Part shown: piece after piece, positions 1-9,942 of the stretch
How the letters are laid out: every line of letters starts with the position of its first letter
Numbering within the stretch: position 1 is the stretch's first letter
Assembly: GCA_030156255.1 (NCBI GenBank)
Contig: JASGMV010000006.1
Span: 1 to 64,000 of the forward strand
Source of the DNA: Desulfovibrionales bacterium
Lineage (GTDB): Bacteria > Desulfobacterota > Desulfovibrionia > Desulfovibrionales > Desulfovibrionaceae
DNA: 64,000 nucleotides
Direction: 5' to 3'
Program-made: the position numbers and the translations under genes
The notes under the pieces: model-generated
Databases searched by the model: none
Told to the model about the DNA's origin: nothing
Seen by the model: the letters and a program-made list of their open reading frames with translations, nothing else

Positions 1-924
1 AAGGTCGGGGGCAACTACATTCAGGTCAACACGCAGTTCGCCACCTTCAATCACAAGATGGGGCTGGACAACTACCTGCGCATGATTTCACGGATGAAGG
101 AATGGCGGGACGTCTACACCAGCGATGCATTTCTCGAGGATCTGCGTCGGCTTGCCGCATCCGAGGAAAGGACCGCAAATGCCTTCGTGGAAATGGTGCG
201 GCGCGTGGCCGAGGTCTTTCCGGAAAAGCGCGTCGTGGTCCGTCCCCATCCCATGGAGGGGCGGGAGTTCTATCTTTCCGGATTGAGCGGCATAGCCAAC
301 GTGCTTGTCACCAACGAGGGGCCGGTGCGGCCCTGGCTGGCCTCGGCGGATGCCGTGATTCATCACAGCTGCACCACGGGCGTCGAAGCCCTGCTGATGA
401 ACAAGAACGTGATACGCTTTACTCCATATCAGGATGGTGCTAGCTGCAACATGCAGGCAAATGTGGGGAAAAAGACGGAAACCGTGGACGAACTGATTCA
501 GGCTCTGCGTCAGGGGGCCATGCCCTCGGAAGAGCGGGCCGCGCAACTCGACCTGATCCGGCCGCATGTCGCCAACTGCACGGAGCTGGCCACCCCGCAG
601 ATCGCCTCCCATGTGGCGCGGCTGGCGGGAGAGGAACCCACATGGCTACCCGAGCCCCTGTCGCCATGGGAAGCCGCCAAGGCGTGGCGCAAGCATTTCA
701 GCAAGGTGCTGCGCTCACATCAGCCCGGGCGCAATGGGCGCAAGGTCCGGTACGCACTCGAAAAGTTTCCCCGGTTGACCCTTTCCCGCATCAATTCGCT
801 GATTCGCACGATTCGTTCCTGCGATCAGGACATCCCCGAAGTCGATGTTGCCGAACTGGGCCTGAACGTGTTTCTGCTCAAGCCCGCCACGGCAGACAAC
901 CAACGGAAGAATCATGGCATATAG
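1..924 (+). CDS. Surface carbohydrate biosynthesis protein, C-terminal part (cut by window edge)
   Basis: The frame is open from the first base, so the true start lies outside the window; the ATG at 58 is internal. The visible 307 residues resemble the C-terminal half of surface polysaccharide proteins of the TIGR04396 type. They contain an RPHPMEGREF stretch and an HHSCTTGVEALL stretch, both typical of the sugar-nucleotide-binding half of GT-B-like folds. The likely role is cytoplasmic assembly or transfer of a surface glycan, but the substrate cannot be told. The stop overlaps the start of the next gene by 11 nt, so the two are probably translated as one operon. The family assignment is from recall of its motifs. 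Confidence 0.7.
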   Translation, partial: KVGGNYIQVNTQFATFNHKMGLDNYLRMISRMKEWRDVYTSDAFLEDLRRLAASEERTANAFVEMVRRVAEVFPEKRVVVRPHPMEGREFYLSGLSGIANVLVTNEGPVRPWLASADAVIHHSCTTGVEALLMNKNVIRFTPYQDGASCNMQANVGKKTETVDELIQALRQGAMPSEERAAQLDLIRPHVANCTELATPQIASHVARLAGEEPTWLPEPLSPWEAAKAWRKHFSKVLRSHQPGRNGRKVRYALEKFPRLTLSRINSLIRTIRSCDQDIPEVDVAELGLNVFLLKPATADNQRKNHGI

Positions 925-1717
925 CTATAACGACATAAAGGAAGCCTACCGCAAGGCCGGGGTGACAAGGGGCAGGGTCGTGCTGGTGAAGACCGACCTG
1001 CGCTACCTCGGCGCTTTCGAATCCCCGAAGCGGAAGGACATTCTTTCCGCGCATTTCAACGCGCTGGCCGATCTGGTCGATCTTGGCGTGGGAACCATCG
1101 TGGTCCAGACGCATTCCACTGGTCTGTGCAATACGGACACTCCCTTTGACAGGCAGGAAACTCCCAGCGAACGCGGCGTGCTCACGGAATTCATCCGGCG
1201 GCAGCAAGGCGCGGTCCGGAGCTGGCATCCGTTCATGTCGTATGCCGCTGTGGGGGCTCATGCCGATGCCATATGCACGAATGTTTCGCGACACAGCTTC
1301 GGACTGGAAACACCCAAGGCGCGTATGCTCGATCTGGACGCCATGTGTCTCAGCATCGGGCTGGAGCCTCGGAAGACCTGCACCTATGTGCACCACATGG
1401 AATTGCTGATGGGAGTTCCCTACAGATATACAAAGGAATTTTCACATCCGGTTGTCATGCCTGACGGCAGAATCGAGACTCAGCCGTTCTACATGTTCGT
1501 CTGGTACCGGGGCATGGATCTGCATCGGGATGGAAATCGCAAACTATTCAGGCATCTTGAGAAAACCGGCCTGACCATGCGGGATGCAGCTCTGGGCAAG
1601 GGCCATGTGTACGGCTACTCCTGCCCGGATTTTTGCAAGCATGCCGCGAAGTTCTTTCGGGATGACATCTACGGCTGGACCGAGAGGGAACCGGCCATTC
1701 GACCCTATACGGTTTGA
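914..1717 (+). CDS. AAC(3)-family N-acetyltransferase-like acyltransferase
   Basis: This 267-residue protein has the antibiotic N-acetyltransferase (AAC(3)) fold pattern, including a central THSTG segment and a conserved YVHHMELLMGVPYR segment near residue 160, where the family's active-site His/Glu lie. Members found in glycan loci are thought to acylate amino sugars rather than drugs. Its position between a surface carbohydrate gene and KAS III/ACP genes supports that role here. The ATG overlaps the upstream stop. A resistance role is not excluded but is less likely. The natural acyl donor and acceptor are unknown, and a neighbouring acyl-ACP donor is an inference. Confidence 0.75.
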   Translation: MAYSYNDIKEAYRKAGVTRGRVVLVKTDLRYLGAFESPKRKDILSAHFNALADLVDLGVGTIVVQTHSTGLCNTDTPFDRQETPSERGVLTEFIRRQQGAVRSWHPFMSYAAVGAHADAICTNVSRHSFGLETPKARMLDLDAMCLSIGLEPRKTCTYVHHMELLMGVPYRYTKEFSHPVVMPDGRIETQPFYMFVWYRGMDLHRDGNRKLFRHLEKTGLTMRDAALGKGHVYGYSCPDFCKHAAKFFRDDIYGWTEREPAIRPYTV

Positions 1718-1721
1718 GTTG

Positions 1722-2345
1722 ATGATGCAGTATACCAGCATTCCTACCGATTTCATTTTCTGGGGACGCGATTACGTCCACGGGACCCATGTGATAGACG
1801 CATTTCTGCGCGCGTTCGACCAGTGGGGGCCGGAGAGGATTTCCGAATTCAGGGCAACGTTTCTGAAGCCCATAGTCTCTCAGGCCTGCTTTGTTCGCTA
1901 TGACCGCAAGGATGATTTCCTTGCGGCCCGCGGCGATCTGTACGCGGAATTCAAGGTGACGGCCGGAGATGCGACGATTCATGTCGGGCTGATGCCGGAT
2001 TCCCGTCCAGTGGTCGAAAGAATTCCCAATGATGAGGATGTGCTGACTGTCGAGGCTGTCGTGGATTCGGCCAATTCCCGGATTTCCGTGCCGTTTTCAT
2101 CCACGGATCGATTCTTTTCCCGGATTGTCGCGAGCAACAAGAAAATGCTGTGGGCCATCCTTGGGAAGGAGGGCTACACTCCATGGCGACTCGGGCGGTT
2201 GTCCTTTCAGCCCGATTCGCTTGAAGGCGCCCACGAGGCCGTTATTCAGATGGTGAGCAACATCGGGAATGCCATGGTTCGCAGCCGTGTTCTCATGGAA
2301 GGCCGCCCTTGTGGCGAGATTCAATTCGTAAGGAAGAAATTATGA
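1722..2345 (+). CDS. Putative hotdog-fold (MaoC/FabZ-like) protein in glycan acylation cluster
   Basis: This 207-residue protein starts at ATG 1722, with a second ATG at 1725; longer in-frame starts would run deep into the preceding gene. It has a GRDYVHGTHVIDAF segment, then an ATFLKPI segment and alternating strands. Together these suggest a hotdog-fold dehydratase or thioesterase, but no signature is strong enough to fix the function. It lies 4 nt after the acyltransferase, and its stop overlaps the KAS III start (ATGA). Such coupling suggests it acts on the same ACP-bound acyl chain. It should be treated as hypothetical with a fold guess. Confidence 0.5.
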   Translation: MMQYTSIPTDFIFWGRDYVHGTHVIDAFLRAFDQWGPERISEFRATFLKPIVSQACFVRYDRKDDFLAARGDLYAEFKVTAGDATIHVGLMPDSRPVVERIPNDEDVLTVEAVVDSANSRISVPFSSTDRFFSRIVASNKKMLWAILGKEGYTPWRLGRLSFQPDSLEGAHEAVIQMVSNIGNAMVRSRVLMEGRPCGEIQFVRKKL

Positions 2346-3265
2346 CCATAGGCATCGCCGGAATCGGGATTCATATCCCGCAGATTCAGGATTGTCGGGA
2401 AAAGCTTTCCCGGCACAACGTGGATGAATCCTTTCTCGAGAACAAGACGGGATTCGTGGGCAATGCGCAGAAGAACGGGCTGGCCACGTCCGACCTGTGC
2501 GTGCTGGCTGCCGAGGATTTGGCGAGGAAACGGGATTTTTCCGCCGAGGAAGTGGATTTCCTGTGCGTCTGCACGCAGAACGGGGATTTCCATCTTCCGC
2601 AGACATCGGCTCTGGTGCACCGGAAACTGGGGTTGCCCCGTTCCTGCGCCGCGTTCGACATTTCGCTGGGCTGTTCGGGCTACGTGTATTCCCTGAACGT
2701 GGCCCGGGCGTTCATGGAGGCGAACGGGTTGAAGCGCGGACTCGTGTTTACCGCGGATCCGTATTCCGACATCATCGACATCAACGACAAGAACACGGAC
2801 CTGCTGTTCGGTGACGCGGCCACGGTCACGCTCATGACGGACGATCCCGATTACGAGATCGGCAAGTCCGTGTTCGAGACGGATGGCGCGTCCGCCGAGG
2901 CCCTTCAGTGCGAGCACGGGGGACGTCTGTTCATGGATGGCAGGCGGATTTTCGAGTTCGTCCTGCGCCATGTGCCGCAGAGCGTGGACGCATGCCTGCA
3001 GCGGAATGATCTGGCAAAGGATGACATCACGCTGTTCCTGCTGCATCAGGCCAGCCTGTATCTCGTGAAGAACGCGGCCAAGCGGCTCAAGGTGTCCGTG
3101 GACAAGGTGCCGTTCGTTGCCGCGGAGTACGGGAATACGGTGTCTTCCTCGGTTCCCCTTGCGCTTGAAGAACATTATGATCAGAAGCCCGGGGCCTCGC
3201 TGCTTCTCAGCGGTTTCGGAGTCGGACTTTCCCTGGCAACAACAATCATCACGAGGATAAAATGA
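2342..3265 (+). CDS. 3-oxoacyl-ACP synthase III-like protein (KAS III family)
   Basis: This 307-residue protein starts at ATG 2342, inside the upstream stop; the frame is open further up but lacks family similarity there. The thiolase-fold catalytic triad is visible: Cys111 in GCSGY, His235 in LLHQAS and Asn265 in YGNTVSSS. KAS III enzymes condense an acyl-CoA starter with malonyl-ACP, and relatives also transfer acyl groups. Its place directly before an ACP gene in a glycan locus suggests it makes a short acyl-ACP used to decorate a sugar, not housekeeping fatty acids. It ends in an ATGA overlap with the ACP start. Confidence 0.85.
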   Translation: MTIGIAGIGIHIPQIQDCREKLSRHNVDESFLENKTGFVGNAQKNGLATSDLCVLAAEDLARKRDFSAEEVDFLCVCTQNGDFHLPQTSALVHRKLGLPRSCAAFDISLGCSGYVYSLNVARAFMEANGLKRGLVFTADPYSDIIDINDKNTDLLFGDAATVTLMTDDPDYEIGKSVFETDGASAEALQCEHGGRLFMDGRRIFEFVLRHVPQSVDACLQRNDLAKDDITLFLLHQASLYLVKNAAKRLKVSVDKVPFVAAEYGNTVSSSVPLALEEHYDQKPGASLLLSGFGVGLSLATTIITRIK

Positions 3266-3516
3266 GTAAAGTGACTGTGCAGGACGTGTTCAAGCTGTTT
3301 GAAGCGGCCGATCTGGATATTGACGTGACCGAACTGGACCCTGCCGCTCCCCTGCTGGAACAGGAGCTGGATTCCCTGGACATGATGAACGTGTATTTCC
3401 AGATCGAGGAAACCTACGGCATTTCCGTTGGCGAGGATTCCATTGCCTCGGGCGATTGGGACACCATGCAGAAGATCGCCGACAGCCTGAATGCGTCCTT
3501 GTCTTCCCAAGGGTAG
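3262..3516 (+). CDS. Acyl carrier protein
   Basis: This 84-residue acidic protein has the phosphopantetheine attachment motif DSLD, with Ser38 as the modified residue, in a four-helix ACP pattern. It is translationally coupled to the KAS III-like gene by an ATGA overlap. The usual acpP neighbours (fabD, fabG, fabF) are absent, so this is a specialised ACP serving the local acyltransferase set. Acyl transfer to a surface sugar by the AAC(3)-like enzyme is the simplest reading, but it is inferred from gene order only. Confidence 0.88.
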   Translation: MSKVTVQDVFKLFEAADLDIDVTELDPAAPLLEQELDSLDMMNVYFQIEETYGISVGEDSIASGDWDTMQKIADSLNASLSSQG

Positions 3517-3586
3517 ATCAGGGCGGATGCTGGAGGGGAGATACTTTTAGCCGGGAGAATATGGGTTGGTACCGAACGGGAAAAAG

Positions 3587-4912
3587 ATGCAGGAGTGGAT
3601 GAGGATGCTTTGGAGTTATCCGCGGTCCATAACCGGACATGGAACGCGGAAGACTCTCGAGTTCTTGAAGCAGATCAACAGCGAGTTGACAATTCATTCG
3701 TTTCCAACCGGAATGCAGGTGTTTGATTGGGAAATTCCCGAGGAGTGGAATATCCATGGAGGATATCTGAAGCACGAGTCTGGCCGTATCTTTGCCGACT
3801 TCAATGAAACGCCATTGCATGTGTTGGGCTACTCGGCTCCCTACCATAATGTCTTGTCCAGGGAGGAGCTGATTCCACATATCTTTACCCAGCCGGATCA
3901 GCCTGACGTCATTCCGTATGTTACCTCGTACTACAGGAATAGATGGGGGTTCTGTCTTTCCGAGAACTTGAAGCAGGCGTTGCCGGATGGGAACTACGAG
4001 GTATGCATTGACGCGGAGAAGAAGGCAGGCCAACTTTTATTAGCGGACATGTTGATTCCGGGGCAGAGAGCAGAGGAAATATTCTTTTCCACATACATAT
4101 GCCATCCTGCGATGGCAAACAATGAGTTGTCTGGTATTGCCTTGGCTACGGCCCTTGCTCTCTATGTGAAGGAAAAACATCCGACACCGCATTACTCGTA
4201 TCGATTCGTCTTCTCGCCGGAAACTATCGGGGCAATCGCCTATCTGAGTGAGAATTTGAGGATCCTGCAGCAGAACATGGCGTGTGGATTCGTTCTGTCC
4301 TGTGTTGGTGACGAACGTGCCTACAGTCATATTCAGTCCCGTTTTGGCGATTCCCTGGCAGACAAGGCGTTGGAAGCCGCATTGCTGGGGCAGGAGAATG
4401 TAACCACATATTCCTTTCTCGAAAGAGGATCGGACGAAAGGCAGTACTGTTCTCCCGGGGTGGACTTGCCTGTCTGCGGTTTCTGTAGAAGCAAATATGG
4501 TGAATATCCTGAATACCATACGAGCGCAGATAATTTTGACGTGGTGTCTGCCAGGGGACTTGAAGGGTCTTACGAGGTGGTTTGTTCTATCGTCGATGCT
4601 TTCGAGATCGGATTGTACCCGAGAGCTGCCGTATTGTGCGAGCCTCAACTGGGTAAAAGGAATCTCTATCCGACCCTTTCCCAAAAAGGGGCGTACGGGG
4701 ATACGAAGACACGTTTGAATGTGTTCGCGTACTCAGATGGCAGGCATTCTCTTTTCGACATTGCCAAAATCATTGGAAAGCCGCTTCGCACGGTCTTGGG
4801 GGAGGTCCGGACATTAATCAAGCATGGATTGTTGTCAGCGCACCATGTCCCATGTCAGCGGGGTGCCCTTCGCATAGGCGGCAGCGGCGGTTCGTCCGAG
4901 AATCTCATCTAG
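3587..4912 (+). CDS. DUF4910-type M28-like aminopeptidase-fold protein with C-terminal winged helix
   Basis: This 441-residue protein begins LWSYPRSITG after a short lead, as family members do, which favours ATG 3587 over TTG 3566. Metal-site segments typical of M28-like peptidases are present: ICHPAMANNE (171-180), GSDERQY (281-287) and EYHTSADN (309-316). The C-terminus, near residues 375-425, has a winged-helix-like block with YSDGRHSLFDIA. Such proteins recur in polysaccharide loci, but their substrate is not established. Base composition is visibly more AT-rich than in the neighbours. The last 26 codons run antisense into the 3' end of pseI, and the tail is rich in Gly/Ser, as if the original stop was lost. 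Confidence 0.8.
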   Translation: MQEWMRMLWSYPRSITGHGTRKTLEFLKQINSELTIHSFPTGMQVFDWEIPEEWNIHGGYLKHESGRIFADFNETPLHVLGYSAPYHNVLSREELIPHIFTQPDQPDVIPYVTSYYRNRWGFCLSENLKQALPDGNYEVCIDAEKKAGQLLLADMLIPGQRAEEIFFSTYICHPAMANNELSGIALATALALYVKEKHPTPHYSYRFVFSPETIGAIAYLSENLRILQQNMACGFVLSCVGDERAYSHIQSRFGDSLADKALEAALLGQENVTTYSFLERGSDERQYCSPGVDLPVCGFCRSKYGEYPEYHTSADNFDVVSARGLEGSYEVVCSIVDAFEIGLYPRAAVLCEPQLGKRNLYPTLSQKGAYGDTKTRLNVFAYSDGRHSLFDIAKIIGKPLRTVLGEVRTLIKHGLLSAHHVPCQRGALRIGGSGGSSENLI

Positions 4913-5869
4913 ATGGCGGGTATGCAGGCCGTTGCCCGGGCGGACCGAGCGGATGTTTTCCGGGGTGAAGGTCTCTCCCGGGGCCATGTCCCTGGCAATG
5001 AACAGGGAGCGGCGGAACGCCAGACTGGTCTTCTGCTTTTCCGTGAGTTCGAAGGTCACCTTGCCAAGAGCCTTTTCCGCCTTGCGCACGCCATGAACCA
5101 TGGCCTTGAATTCCTCGGGCACCAGTGAAAAACTCGTGTCCGGGCCGTCCTCGGATCGGGACAGGCAGAAATGCTTTTCGATGATCCGTGCGCCCAGCGC
5201 CGTGGCGGCGATGGGAATCTCGGTTCCGAGCGTGTGGTCGGAAAGACCGGCCACGACCCCGAACCGTTCCGCCAGATACGGGATGGTCCGCAGATTCAGC
5301 TCCTCGGGCGGGGCCGGATAGGCGGACGTGCACTTGAGCAGCGCCAGCTCGGTTCCCCCGGCTCCGTGGAACGCGTCCACGGCTTCCCGGATTTCCGCTT
5401 CCGAGGCCATGCCCGTGGACATGATGGCGGGCTTGCCGGTCGAGGCGATCCTGCGGATCAGCGGAATGTCCACCAGTTCGAAGGAGGCCACCTTGTGGCA
5501 GGGCGTGCCCAGTTCCTCCAGAAAATCCACTGCGGACGCGTCAAAGGGCGTGGAAAAGAAGACCAGCCCCAGATCGTCGGCGACCTGTTTCAGCTTCGGA
5601 TGCCATTCCCACGGGGTGTAGGCTTCGGCGTAGAGGTCGTGCAGGGTGCGGCCTTCCCAGATGGTTCCCTTGATGCGGAAGTGCTCGTTGTCGCAGTCGA
5701 GGGTGATGGTGTCCGGGGTGTAGGTCTGGAGCTTGATGGCGTCGGCCCCGGCCTCGGCGGCCGCCCTGACGATGGCCACGGCCCGGTCGAAGTCCTGATT
5801 GTGGTTGGCGCTCATCTCGGCCACGATGAATACGGGCCTGTCCTCGGCAAACATTTTTCCGTCAGTCAT
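4835..5869 (-). CDS. pseI: Pseudaminic acid synthase
   Basis: This 344-residue NeuB-family enzyme condenses 2,4-diacetamido-2,4,6-trideoxy-L-altrose with phosphoenolpyruvate to give pseudaminic acid. The N-terminal VFIVAEMSANHNQDF segment and the AYTPWEW segment near residue 90 point to PseI rather than the sialic or legionaminic synthases. The TIM barrel fills about residues 10-270 and the SAF domain about 285-340. ATG 5869 is preceded by GGAG at good spacing; ATG 5884 is a possible alternative. The gene follows the PseG-acetyltransferase fusion by a few bases, which matches pathway order. The product probably goes to flagellin or surface glycan. Confidence 0.93.
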   Translation of the reverse strand: MTDGKMFAEDRPVFIVAEMSANHNQDFDRAVAIVRAAAEAGADAIKLQTYTPDTITLDCDNEHFRIKGTIWEGRTLHDLYAEAYTPWEWHPKLKQVADDLGLVFFSTPFDASAVDFLEELGTPCHKVASFELVDIPLIRRIASTGKPAIMSTGMASEAEIREAVDAFHGAGGTELALLKCTSAYPAPPEELNLRTIPYLAERFGVVAGLSDHTLGTEIPIAATALGARIIEKHFCLSRSEDGPDTSFSLVPEEFKAMVHGVRKAEKALGKVTFELTEKQKTSLAFRRSLFIARDMAPGETFTPENIRSVRPGNGLHTRHLDEILGRTAAAAYAKGTPLTWDMVR

Positions 5870-5874
5870 GGGAA

Positions 5875-6945
5875 TCAACTCCATTCGAAACGCAACGAAT
5901 TCTCGTTCGACCTCTTCCGAGTGAAACCGGCCTTGCGGAACATGACGGCAGACGCCCTGTTTTCCGGCTTGACCATGGCCACGGCCCGGTCGGCAAAGTC
6001 CAGTCGCCGCATTTCCCGGCAGGCGAGTTCGACCATGGTCGTGCCGATGCCCCGGCCGGTCATTCCCGGCGCCGCATTCAGGCTGATCACCGCGTCGCGG
6101 CCCTGCCGGGCCAGACGGATCTGCCCCACGGGCGCGTCGGTTCCATCCCGGGCAACGTAAAAAAGTATGTCCGGATCGGAAAGCGTTTTTTCGTACCACG
6201 CCGCATGGGTCGCGAGGTCGATGACGTCGGCGTTGAACGAGTTCTTCCGTACATCCGGATGGTTGCGCCATGCCAGCAGCATTTCGCAGTCTTCGGGGGC
6301 GGCCGGTCTCAGGGTGAGAGCGCGGCAGTACATGGCGTTGACCACGCGCGTGGCACCCTGTCCGTCGATCAGGGCCTGTCCGTTTTCGGCCATGCGTCGG
6401 CGCGTCGGTGCGTCCGAGGCCAGTGCGTCCACCCTGTCGGCCATGTCCCGGGCCGTGCTGTCCGGGGCAAGGCAGGAGGCGATGCCGTGTCCGGTCATGG
6501 AGGCGATGATTCCCATCTGATTGTCGGCGATGGGAAGCAGGATCATGGGCACGCCCATGAAGCAGAGTTCCCAGCTGGTGGTGCCTGCTGCGGAAACCGC
6601 CATGTCCGCCCATTGCATCAGGCCGGGCATGTCCGTGGTCGCGGTGAGAACATCGCAACGGCAGGAAAGGCGCGTTGCGGCCCGTGCGATTTTTTCGGCG
6701 TGCGGATTGGCCGCGCCCACGACCACCTTGACGTGGGCCGGAGGCGACGGCAGCAGGGCAAGGGCTTCGAGTACCCGCTGCGTGGCATTGGCCGGGTCTG
6801 CACCGCCAAAGGATACGAGCAGGTTGTCGGCCTTGTCCGCAATGCGTTTGCCTGCCGGGGCCAGCTCGCGGAATTCCCTGCGCAGCAGGGTGTATTTCAG
6901 CCCGAGCAGCAGGGAGGCATCCGGATTGATCGCGTACGTTTTACC
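5875..6945 (-). CDS. pseG: PseG-GNAT fusion, 5' end missing
   Basis: The reading frame is open from 6945 down to the stop at 5875. The first part matches the C-terminal half of PseG, the UDP-sugar hydrolase of pseudaminic acid synthesis: LLLGLKYTLLRREF, LLVSFGGADPANATQ and SAAGTTSWELCFMG are clear. A GNAT acetyltransferase domain follows, with GRGIGT and a PENRASAVMFRKAGF block, and is probably the PseH step. The N-terminal half of PseG, about 150 residues, is absent, because upstream of about 6930 the sequence belongs to another gene on the other strand. GTG 6726 is an internal codon, not a believable start. The gene is therefore a pseudogene or one side of a chimeric join. Confidence 0.85.
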   Translation of the reverse strand, partial: GKTYAINPDASLLLGLKYTLLRREFRELAPAGKRIADKADNLLVSFGGADPANATQRVLEALALLPSPPAHVKVVVGAANPHAEKIARAATRLSCRCDVLTATTDMPGLMQWADMAVSAAGTTSWELCFMGVPMILLPIADNQMGIIASMTGHGIASCLAPDSTARDMADRVDALASDAPTRRRMAENGQALIDGQGATRVVNAMYCRALTLRPAAPEDCEMLLAWRNHPDVRKNSFNADVIDLATHAAWYEKTLSDPDILFYVARDGTDAPVGQIRLARQGRDAVISLNAAPGMTGRGIGTTMVELACREMRRLDFADRAVAMVKPENRASAVMFRKAGFTRKRSNENSLRFEWS

Positions 6946-8714: not shown

Positions 8715-9405
8715 AATCATCATCGTCGAGGACGACGTCGAGCAGCTGGAAACGCTCGTGGAGTTCCTGGAGTTGAAGGGATTCGACGTCCATGGCGCCC
8801 AGTGCGCGCTCGACCTCTTCCAGGCCCTGGTCGGAGGGGCGTATGACGTCGCCATCGTGGACATCGGATTGCCGGACAAATCCGGCTTCAAGGTCGTGGA
8901 GCATTTGCGCCAAAATACGTCCATGGGGATTATCGTTCTCACGGCCAGGGACTCCATGGACGACAAGCTGCGCGGCTATGAACTCGGAGCCGACCATTAC
9001 TTCGTCAAGCCTTTGGACAGCCGGGAGCTTGCGGCGGCAGCCGGCAGCCTCATCGAGCGTATGGCGTGCTCATCCGCCTCTATCGACGCCGCATCGGGAG
9101 TCGAGTGGCGGCTCGCCCCCTCGAGATGGATGCTGGCCTCTCCAGCAGGGCAGGACGTCAAGTTGACGGAAAAGGAGGTTGCGTTTCTGCATCTCCTGCT
9201 GTCCCATGGCAACGAAGTCGTTTCGCGAGATACGATATTGCAGGCTCTGGATTACCGGGCCGAAGAGTCATACGGCGGCCGGGCTCTTGCCGTCATGGTG
9301 ACGCGGCTTCGCAAGAAAATTCGCGATCAAGCCGGGGTCGAGTTGCCCATCAAGACGATCCGGTCCCACGGCTACAGTTTTTCGGCGCCCGCCGCCATCG
9401 TGTGA
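8701..9405 (+). CDS. OmpR/PhoB-family response regulator
   Basis: This 234-residue regulator starts at ATG 8701, which overlaps the kinase stop. The receiver domain has the acidic pair at D11-D12, the phospho-acceptor D54 in VDIGLP and K103 in FVKPLD. A winged-helix DNA-binding domain follows from about residue 135, with LTEKEVAFLHLLL and TIRSHGYSF. It is the cognate partner of the truncated sensor kinase. No target promoter can be assigned from the window. If the kinase is dead, the regulator is probably orphaned. Confidence 0.92.
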   Translation: MAAGRIIIVEDDVEQLETLVEFLELKGFDVHGAQCALDLFQALVGGAYDVAIVDIGLPDKSGFKVVEHLRQNTSMGIIVLTARDSMDDKLRGYELGADHYFVKPLDSRELAAAAGSLIERMACSSASIDAASGVEWRLAPSRWMLASPAGQDVKLTEKEVAFLHLLLSHGNEVVSRDTILQALDYRAEESYGGRALAVMVTRLRKKIRDQAGVELPIKTIRSHGYSFSAPAAIV

Positions 9406-9470
9406 GCCGCACGATCCGCCGGAGAAACTCGGGTATACTCTTCGCGTTGAGTGGAGAAGGGTTGCTGTAT

Positions 9471-9657
9471 AGGCTGCCGCCGACTGTAGACGACGGCGAC
9501 AGGGTCGGGTGGCGCGACGGCCAACTCTTTAGAATTATATGCTGTTATTTGCAGACGCTGTAGGTGAAGATGCCGGCGCCGGCGCGCGGACGTAAAAAAT
9601 CCAACGCAAAAATGGTTGCAACCGAAGTTGCAACACTTTGAAATCGTTGGCGTCCCC
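9471..9657. repeat. Left copy of a 187-bp direct repeat
   Basis: This segment aligns without gaps to 20338-20524, with 15 substitutions counted by hand (about 92% identity). It includes a degenerate copy of the tRNA-Glu terminator hairpin with a TTCG loop. It ends in GGCGTCCCC, the complement of the last bases of the tRNA-Glu gene, but no tRNA follows. The two copies bracket the metal-efflux operon. The segment resembles an island end or a remnant of a duplicated tRNA-Glu locus. Confidence 0.9.
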
Positions 9658-9699
9658 TCACGTCGCTTCGCGTAGTCTCGGGGAGGATTTTTTACGTCC
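9588..9699. repeat. 15-bp perfect inverted repeat around the left copy end
   Basis: GGACGTAAAAAATCC at 9588-9602 is repeated in inverted orientation at 9685-9699. The first arm is also in the right copy of the 187-bp repeat; the second arm is unique to this side. The arms flank the tRNA-tail bases at 9648-9657. A recombination scar or an element end is possible, but nothing here identifies a mechanism. Confidence 0.7.
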
Positions 9700-9942
9700 C
9701 GGGATTTTCGTCTTGGCCGGTGGGGAAGAAGGCTATCGGGACTGCTGTTTGTCCACGGAAACCTGACTGTTTGGATAGTATTTGATGATTCTTCCGCCCG
9801 TTGGGCGGCTCGATTCAGAGTTGTCTCGATGTCTTTGGGTTGTTTTTCTCTTCCCTTATTTACCGGACATGTCTTCCTCCTCTCTCCATCAGAGCCCTGC
9901 ATCATCCCGACGCTTCGTCTTACACGCTTTGTTGCGCAGGGC
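9658..9942. other. Non-coding stretch with three potential hairpins
   Basis: No convincing gene is seen between the repeat and the SHOCT gene. There is a CCGCCC-GTT-GGGCGG hairpin at 9794-9808. A 9-bp inverted repeat GAGCCCTGC / GCAGGGCTC at 9892-9900 and 9936-9944 encloses a smaller GACG-CTT-CGTC hairpin at 9909-9919. The outer repeat overlaps the SHOCT stop codon, so it may fold at the 3' end of the efflux mRNA. No U-run follows, so intrinsic termination is not demonstrated. Confidence 0.45.

Follow-up and report, generated by a model that had tools for sequence, protein, structure and literature searches.

A candidate acyl-ACP supply and transfer cassette with a predicted double-hotdog protein beside nonulosonic acid genes of a Desulfovibrionales bacterium

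Amino sugars bearing N-(3-hydroxybutyryl), N-(4-hydroxybutyryl) or 3,5-dihydroxyhexanoyl groups occur in O-antigens and flagellar glycans, and a 3-hydroxybutyryl nonulosonic acid exists (PMC3210612). In open-licence PMC papers we found few accounts of how the acyl donors of such sugars are synthesized. The closest described systems are the viosamine island of Pseudomonas syringae (vioA, vioB, vioS, vioR, acp) and the PAK island orfA-orfN (PMC3927599). In P. syringae the genes of a β-ketoacyl-ACP synthase III (KAS III), a reductase, an acyl carrier protein (ACP) and an acyltransferase stand together; the flagellin sugar is an N-(3-hydroxybutyryl) viosamine, which vioR and vioB mutants lose (PMC3927599). 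In Campylobacter jejuni, pseudaminic acid with a 5-N-(2,3-di-O-methylglyceroyl) group depends on Cj1295, and the authors of that study proposed that Cj1295 removes the N-acetyl group, allowing the substitution; Cj1296/7 is reported to be phase-variable (PMC3068675). We describe here four genes at positions 914-3516 of a 64,000-nucleotide stretch (the window, whose start is base 1 of contig JASGMV010000006.1) from a Desulfovibrionales bacterium, which we compare with these systems.

The four genes of this module are complete open reading frames with ATG starts, all on the + strand: an AAC(3)-family (Antibiotic_NAT) N-acyltransferase (gene 1, 914..1717), a predicted double-hotdog protein of 207 aa (gene 2, 1722..2345), a KAS III (FabH-like) condensing enzyme from a subfamily other than the housekeeping one (gene 3, 2342..3265) and a dedicated ACP (gene 4, 3262..3516). 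Genes 1 and 2 are separated by 4 nt, while genes 2/3 and 3/4 share an ATGA overlap. An original prediction, made from the letters alone, had described four translationally coupled genes, including an AAC(3)-type enzyme and a private ACP, beside pseudaminic acid genes. The coordinates with their 4-base overlaps and gaps, the Pfam matches of genes 1 and 4 (PF02522, PF00550) and the NeuB/SAF and PseG-PseH matches of the neighbours all agree with it. We propose, with a probability of roughly 0.6, that the four genes form a cassette that supplies its own acyl-ACP and uses it to N-acylate an activated amino sugar; in this genome the likeliest acceptor would be pseudaminic or another nonulosonic acid for flagellin or another surface glycan. 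Gene structure, coupling, the intact KAS triad, the predicted fold of gene 2 and a recurrent linkage to N-acyltransferases and amino-sugar or pse genes are established directly; the catalytic steps, the acyl group and the acceptor sugar are what we infer.

The viosamine island resembles the window in that KAS III, ACP and an N-acyltransferase are dedicated to one N-acyl amino sugar (PMC3927599). It differs by using the ketoreductase VioR where the window module has a double hotdog, by its dTDP-hexosamine sugar, and by the lack of AAC(3) and Cj1295-type genes among the seven that are described for the island (PMC3927599). Of the four components grouped in a Vio-type island, the window module has KAS III, ACP and N-acyltransferase, and no reductase gene. 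A short-chain dehydrogenase/reductase (SDR) gene is present in the Campylobacter-like clusters discussed below and in a Desulfovibrionaceae locus (L192; loci outside the window are numbered with an L). Flagellar glycosylation islands (Aeromonas Group II and enterobacterial ones) have ACP, FabG, LuxE and LuxC genes by pse or flagellin-glycan genes, and a lipid-modified sugar has been suggested for them; in the excerpts of these reports considered here the enzymes differ (AMP ligase, LuxC/LuxE), and KAS III and the hotdog family are unmentioned (PMC7874193, PMC4875605). The first impression, of a glycan acylation route not known to be described as one system, needs correcting, an ACP/KAS III route to an N-acyl sugar being known for P. 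syringae flagellin (PMC3927599). The dedicated acyl-ACP logic is already known from VioS/VioR/ACP/VioB in P. syringae and Cj1295 in C. jejuni.

To what extent the module recurs was assessed by a scan based on the KAS alignment over about 85,000 species genomes, which gave 80 loci. In many of the non-Pseudomonas loci a gene of 190-230 aa lies just upstream of KAS and a 78-aa ACP just downstream; by all-against-all comparison and profile these upstream genes belong to the same family as gene 2. Profile searches with the hotdog alone gave 11 loci, of which 10 are in further Campylobacterota genomes and one is the second copy of a Desulfobacteraceae genome; in all 11 KAS and ACP are in the same cluster. 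A KAS search of Desulfovibrionaceae yielded L188, L191, L192 and the divergent L190. Besides the window there are therefore 25 hotdog loci, plus the weak L190, in Thermodesulfobacteriota, Campylobacterota, Pseudomonadota and one Gracilibacteria metagenome-assembled genome (MAG). Every member of the hotdog family that the profile searches detected has a KAS III of this subfamily and an ACP as neighbours. A single-sequence search of 99 relatives and plasmids returned nothing beyond the window, profiles being needed to reach the family, and the hotdog profile, run on 394 genomes from the phylum and 398 from that of genome G497, detected only the window genome and G497. This rare and patchy occurrence is consistent with horizontal transfer.

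Some loci depart from the common arrangement. L038, L040 and L052 were scored as lacking the hotdog but begin at contig ends, so the gene could lie off the contig. Five Campylobacterota genomes (L161-L165) carry two tandem divergent hotdog copies ahead of KAS. A Selenomonadales MAG (L039, 7856-11657) has the order DegT-KAS-ACP-hexapeptide-WbqC without a hotdog gene. One Desulfovibrionaceae genus (L193, 7216-10824) has a more distant variant, a row of AAC(3)-like, SDR-like, methyltransferase-like and KAS III genes near a DegT gene.

An N-acyltransferase lies nearby in every hotdog locus except L036, which is cut by a contig end. Three unrelated folds are represented: 16 loci have a hexapeptide (left-handed beta-helix) enzyme, five loci and the window an AAC(3), and three loci and L190 a GNAT. 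AAC(3) as a fixed member of the module was thus rejected, since hexapeptide or GNAT enzymes take its place elsewhere. Most hotdog loci are also near a sugar aminotransferase, often of the DegT type, and several are part of pseudaminic-acid operons. The genes of L159 are, in order, pseB, pseC, pseF, hexapeptide acyltransferase, PseG-like gene, hotdog, KAS, ACP and NeuB; in L042, L047, L113 and L188 NeuB is next to the module within nonulosonic-acid gene sets, L047 being from Halopseudomonas oceani and L113 from Alteromonas portus. The module of L138 accompanies an NDP-hexose 2,3-dehydratase, Gfo/Idh, DegT and a PglD-like acyltransferase; in L054 the module is found with DegT, a hexapeptide acyltransferase and a nucleotidyltransferase that by inspection resembles RmlA. 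Such varied neighbours, from pse sets to L138, indicate that the module is specific to no single sugar and accompanies amino-sugar synthesis. The four-gene module first described therefore stands in part: hotdog-KAS-ACP is conserved near an N-acyltransferase, and AAC(3) is one of three types. Likewise the idea that a short acyl-ACP is placed on an amino sugar fits the linkage to N-acyltransferase and sugar aminotransferase or pse genes, with an AAC(3) that is exchangeable.

Gene 1 matches PF02522 with 108.2 bits for a cut-off of 25 (E 6e-31), and against the aminoglycoside-resistance models all its scores are far below the cut-off (66.8 bits for 270 in the case of NF033082). The arrangement closest to the window is that of the Campylobacter-like loci L156, L158 and L160, where the co-occurrence to be looked for in other genomes is found, as the order AAC(3)-hotdog-KAS-ACP together with pse genes. 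These loci are called Campylobacter-like in part for a DUF2920 gene. Gene 1 is 33-36% identical to the module copies of these three loci, and in a midpoint-rooted tree of ten AAC(3) sequences it groups with them in a 100/100 clade, apart from the AAC(3) paralogues of the same loci. The AAC(3) reading frame is fragmented in L157 and short in L156, and some AAC(3)-type frames in the L156, L157 and L160 clusters are short or fragmented. It could be argued that the AAC(3) only acetylates, and that KAS, ACP and hotdog serve a different, unlinked sugar of a lost upstream operon: the contig starts within the operon, and other loci have acyltransferases of other folds in place of AAC(3). We regard this as very unlikely given that the same order of four genes is kept in different phyla and that the AAC(3) copies of the module form a clade of their own.

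The product of gene 2 had no match in Pfam, NCBIfam or PDB sequences, and the family profile gave chance matches only against the same three collections. We modelled it with AlphaFold2 from an 11-sequence alignment; the mean confidence (pLDDT) was 92.8, and 95.6 for a Campylobacter-like member. By Foldseek/VIA both models are compact double hotdogs made of two helix-plus-sheet repeats, which supports the hotdog candidate of the original prediction, for which a predicted structure was wanted. The best solved match of the window model is TesB 4r9z (Z 12.8, 3.6 A over 178 residues), and polyketide dehydratase-type domains match at Z about 12. The fold is thus shared with TesB thioesterases and with the dehydratase, pyran synthase and product-template domains of polyketide synthases (Z 10-13), although the window protein has no detectable sequence similarity to TesB or the polyketide synthase dehydratases, has other conserved residues and is about 60 residues shorter. 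LnmK-type acyltransferase/decarboxylases are also double hotdogs; considered as a model, an LnmK-type enzyme was not among the structural matches listed.

These matches raise the possibility of an ordinary dehydratase or thioesterase, which would make the module a mini fatty-acid synthase giving crotonyl- or butyryl-ACP or a free acid. Several features of the family do not favour it. Where aligned, R16, Y18, E105 and K140 are invariant in the 26 members; there is no invariant Asp or His, and position 20, a candidate for the catalytic His, is Gln in 11 of 25 members. In double-hotdog dehydratases a catalytic His of the first repeat goes with an Asp of the second. In addition, the domain is shorter than its structural matches, as noted above, and no enoyl reductase gene is nearby. 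This alternative is rather unlikely in our opinion, and for an acyl-thioester enzyme fold without an obvious dehydratase dyad we assign no reaction. The gene 2 product would have some role in building or handling acyl-ACP. As no description of the hotdog family or of the exchangeable acyltransferase was found in open-licence PMC papers, the family appears undescribed.

Gene 3 contains both KAS III domains (PF08545/PF08541; ACP_syn_III, ACP_syn_III_C) and the triad C111/H235/N265, in keeping with the KAS III-like enzyme with intact Cys-His-Asn that had been predicted. These three residues are conserved in every reliable KAS or FabH row compared; the only rows that differ are the FabH controls L012 and L024, which were mis-oriented and were disregarded in both tree and alignment. 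The window KAS scores below the NCBIfam FabH cut-offs and is 29% identical to the housekeeping fabH product of the genome, encoded on contig C91. Gene 4 has the DSL serine motif and a PF00550 (PP-binding) match of 28.2 bits for a cut-off of 20.8; the only other PP-binding match of the genome is an ACP on C91. The KAS/ACP pair of the window is thus additional, which agrees with the predicted separation from housekeeping fatty acid synthesis.

KAS III-like transacylases are known from antibiotic and natural-product pathways. The KAS III could accordingly act as a shuttle without any condensation, passing a ready-made acyl group, e.g. from an adenylating enzyme, to ACP or to the sugar. Genes for AMP-binding ligases do lie a few genes from the module in Campylobacter-like clusters, and most modules are without a reductase. 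But the condensing triad is fully conserved in the family, and the clusters with ligases also hold a second KAS/ACP set that the ligases may serve. We therefore consider the shuttle improbable.

In the KAS tree the window copy is nearest to Desulfobacteraceae and Desulfovibrio copies, with 53-54% identity to L037 and L038. The hotdog-linked KAS are clustered without forming a single clade (8 changes for a shuffled mean of 14.9). In many Pseudomonas (L053-L116) a KAS III of this subfamily stands alone at about 9001-9924, upstream of apparent flagellin genes. These copies, beside apparent fliC/fliD, nest with Halopseudomonas and Alteromonas copies from pse operons, which suggests derivation from such a module and hints that the known glycosylation-island KAS III of Pseudomonas might be a remnant of hotdog-KAS-ACP. 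Other solo relatives lie away from glycan genes (L035, L049-L051, L187, L189); that of L035 adjoins aldehyde dehydrogenase-like and AOR-like genes. Both groups leave room for a module whose product is the precursor of a lipid or a signal, such as a fatty acid or an acyl-homoserine lactone, its proximity to glycan genes being secondary. The P. syringae glycosylation-island KAS III was reportedly tied, in 2006, to acyl-homoserine lactone and fatty acid levels. We hold such a role to be highly unlikely, because an N-acyltransferase is found at every complete hotdog locus and amino-sugar genes at most of them, and because the genome has its separate fabH and ACP locus.

Directly 3' of the module lies a gene (3566..4912, + strand, start codon uncertain) for an aminopeptidase-like DUF4910/DUF2172 protein with a C-terminal winged helix-turn-helix (PF16254, E 7.6e-88; PF09940; PF16221). 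We take the product to belong to the C. jejuni Cj1295 family and to be a candidate sugar N-deacylase. It is 41-47% identical to copies in the Campylobacter-like L156, L157 and L160 and in L192. In the latter no more than 7 kb hold the Cj1295 homologue (47% identity) and AAC(3) as well as hotdog, KAS and ACP, these three being on the opposite strand. In having a Cj1295-family protein together with pse genes and an N-acyltransferase, the window is like the C. jejuni locus, where the Cj1295-family gene is by the N-acetyltransferase gene Cj1296/7 and pse genes and the product is a non-acetyl N-acyl pseudaminic acid (PMC3068675). A difference is that the di-O-methylglyceroyl group of C. jejuni implies another acyl chemistry.

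Combining the Cj1295 and viosamine precedents (PMC3068675, PMC3927599) with the linkage data, we propose the following route for the cassette. On the private ACP, KAS III would condense malonyl with a starter acyl-CoA, and the double hotdog would process or handle the short acyl-ACP; keto reduction, if any, would come from another reductase. The Cj1295-like protein may first unmask the amine by removing acetyl, and the AAC(3)-type enzyme would then move the acyl group from ACP to the sugar amino group. Our leading guess for this group is a short C3-C6 acyl such as 3-hydroxybutyryl; suitable products are known, since such N-acyl sugars occur in nature (PMC3210612).

Several points weigh against this proposal. 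The module of the window has no reductase gene to reduce a β-keto product, and many AAC(3) enzymes use acyl-CoA rather than acyl-ACP. The window already encodes a PseH-like domain, which leaves the module no simple role as a substitute for PseH; the Selenomonadales locus indicates that the hotdog is not strictly required; and solo KAS III relatives exist away from glycan genes. Part of the operon upstream is lost, because the contig begins at window base 1. Finally, gene linkage does not prove function.

Beyond the window, we put forward tentatively, at somewhat less than even odds, that hotdog, KAS III and ACP form a horizontally mobile cassette, a general generator of short acyl-ACP for N-acylation of nonulosonic and other amino sugars in several phyla, working with whichever N-acyltransferase fold is at hand and with a hotdog chemistry or acyl handling new for this fold. 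The hotdog gene would then be a marker for acyl-sugar loci, predicting which genomes make non-acetyl N-acyl sugars. The cassette also suggests ACP and not CoA as the acyl donor, and ties the Cj1295-type protein to re-acylation.

Upstream, the start of gene 1 overlaps by 11 nt the 3' part of a glycosyltransferase-like gene of surface-carbohydrate type (1..924, + strand; TIGR04396 of NCBIfam, 147.1 bits for a cut-off of 125), itself cut by the contig start. On the other side, beyond the Cj1295-type gene, nonulosonic-acid genes lie on the opposite strand: a NeuB/PseI-type synthase (4835..5845, - strand; PF03102, E 7.4e-91, and SAF) and a fusion of the C-terminal half of PseG with a GNAT-type PseH (5875..6945, - strand; Glyco_tran_28_C and Acetyltransf_3), whose N-terminus is missing at a junction. 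This PseH-like domain led us to reject the module as a replacement of PseH in the window; L159 has a hexapeptide enzyme in that place. At about 6,930-6,945 the PseG frame (- strand) and a sensor-kinase frame (+ strand) are both truncated; the double truncation suggests either the breakpoint of a rearrangement or an error in the assembly. To the left of this junction lie the module and the genes closest to it.

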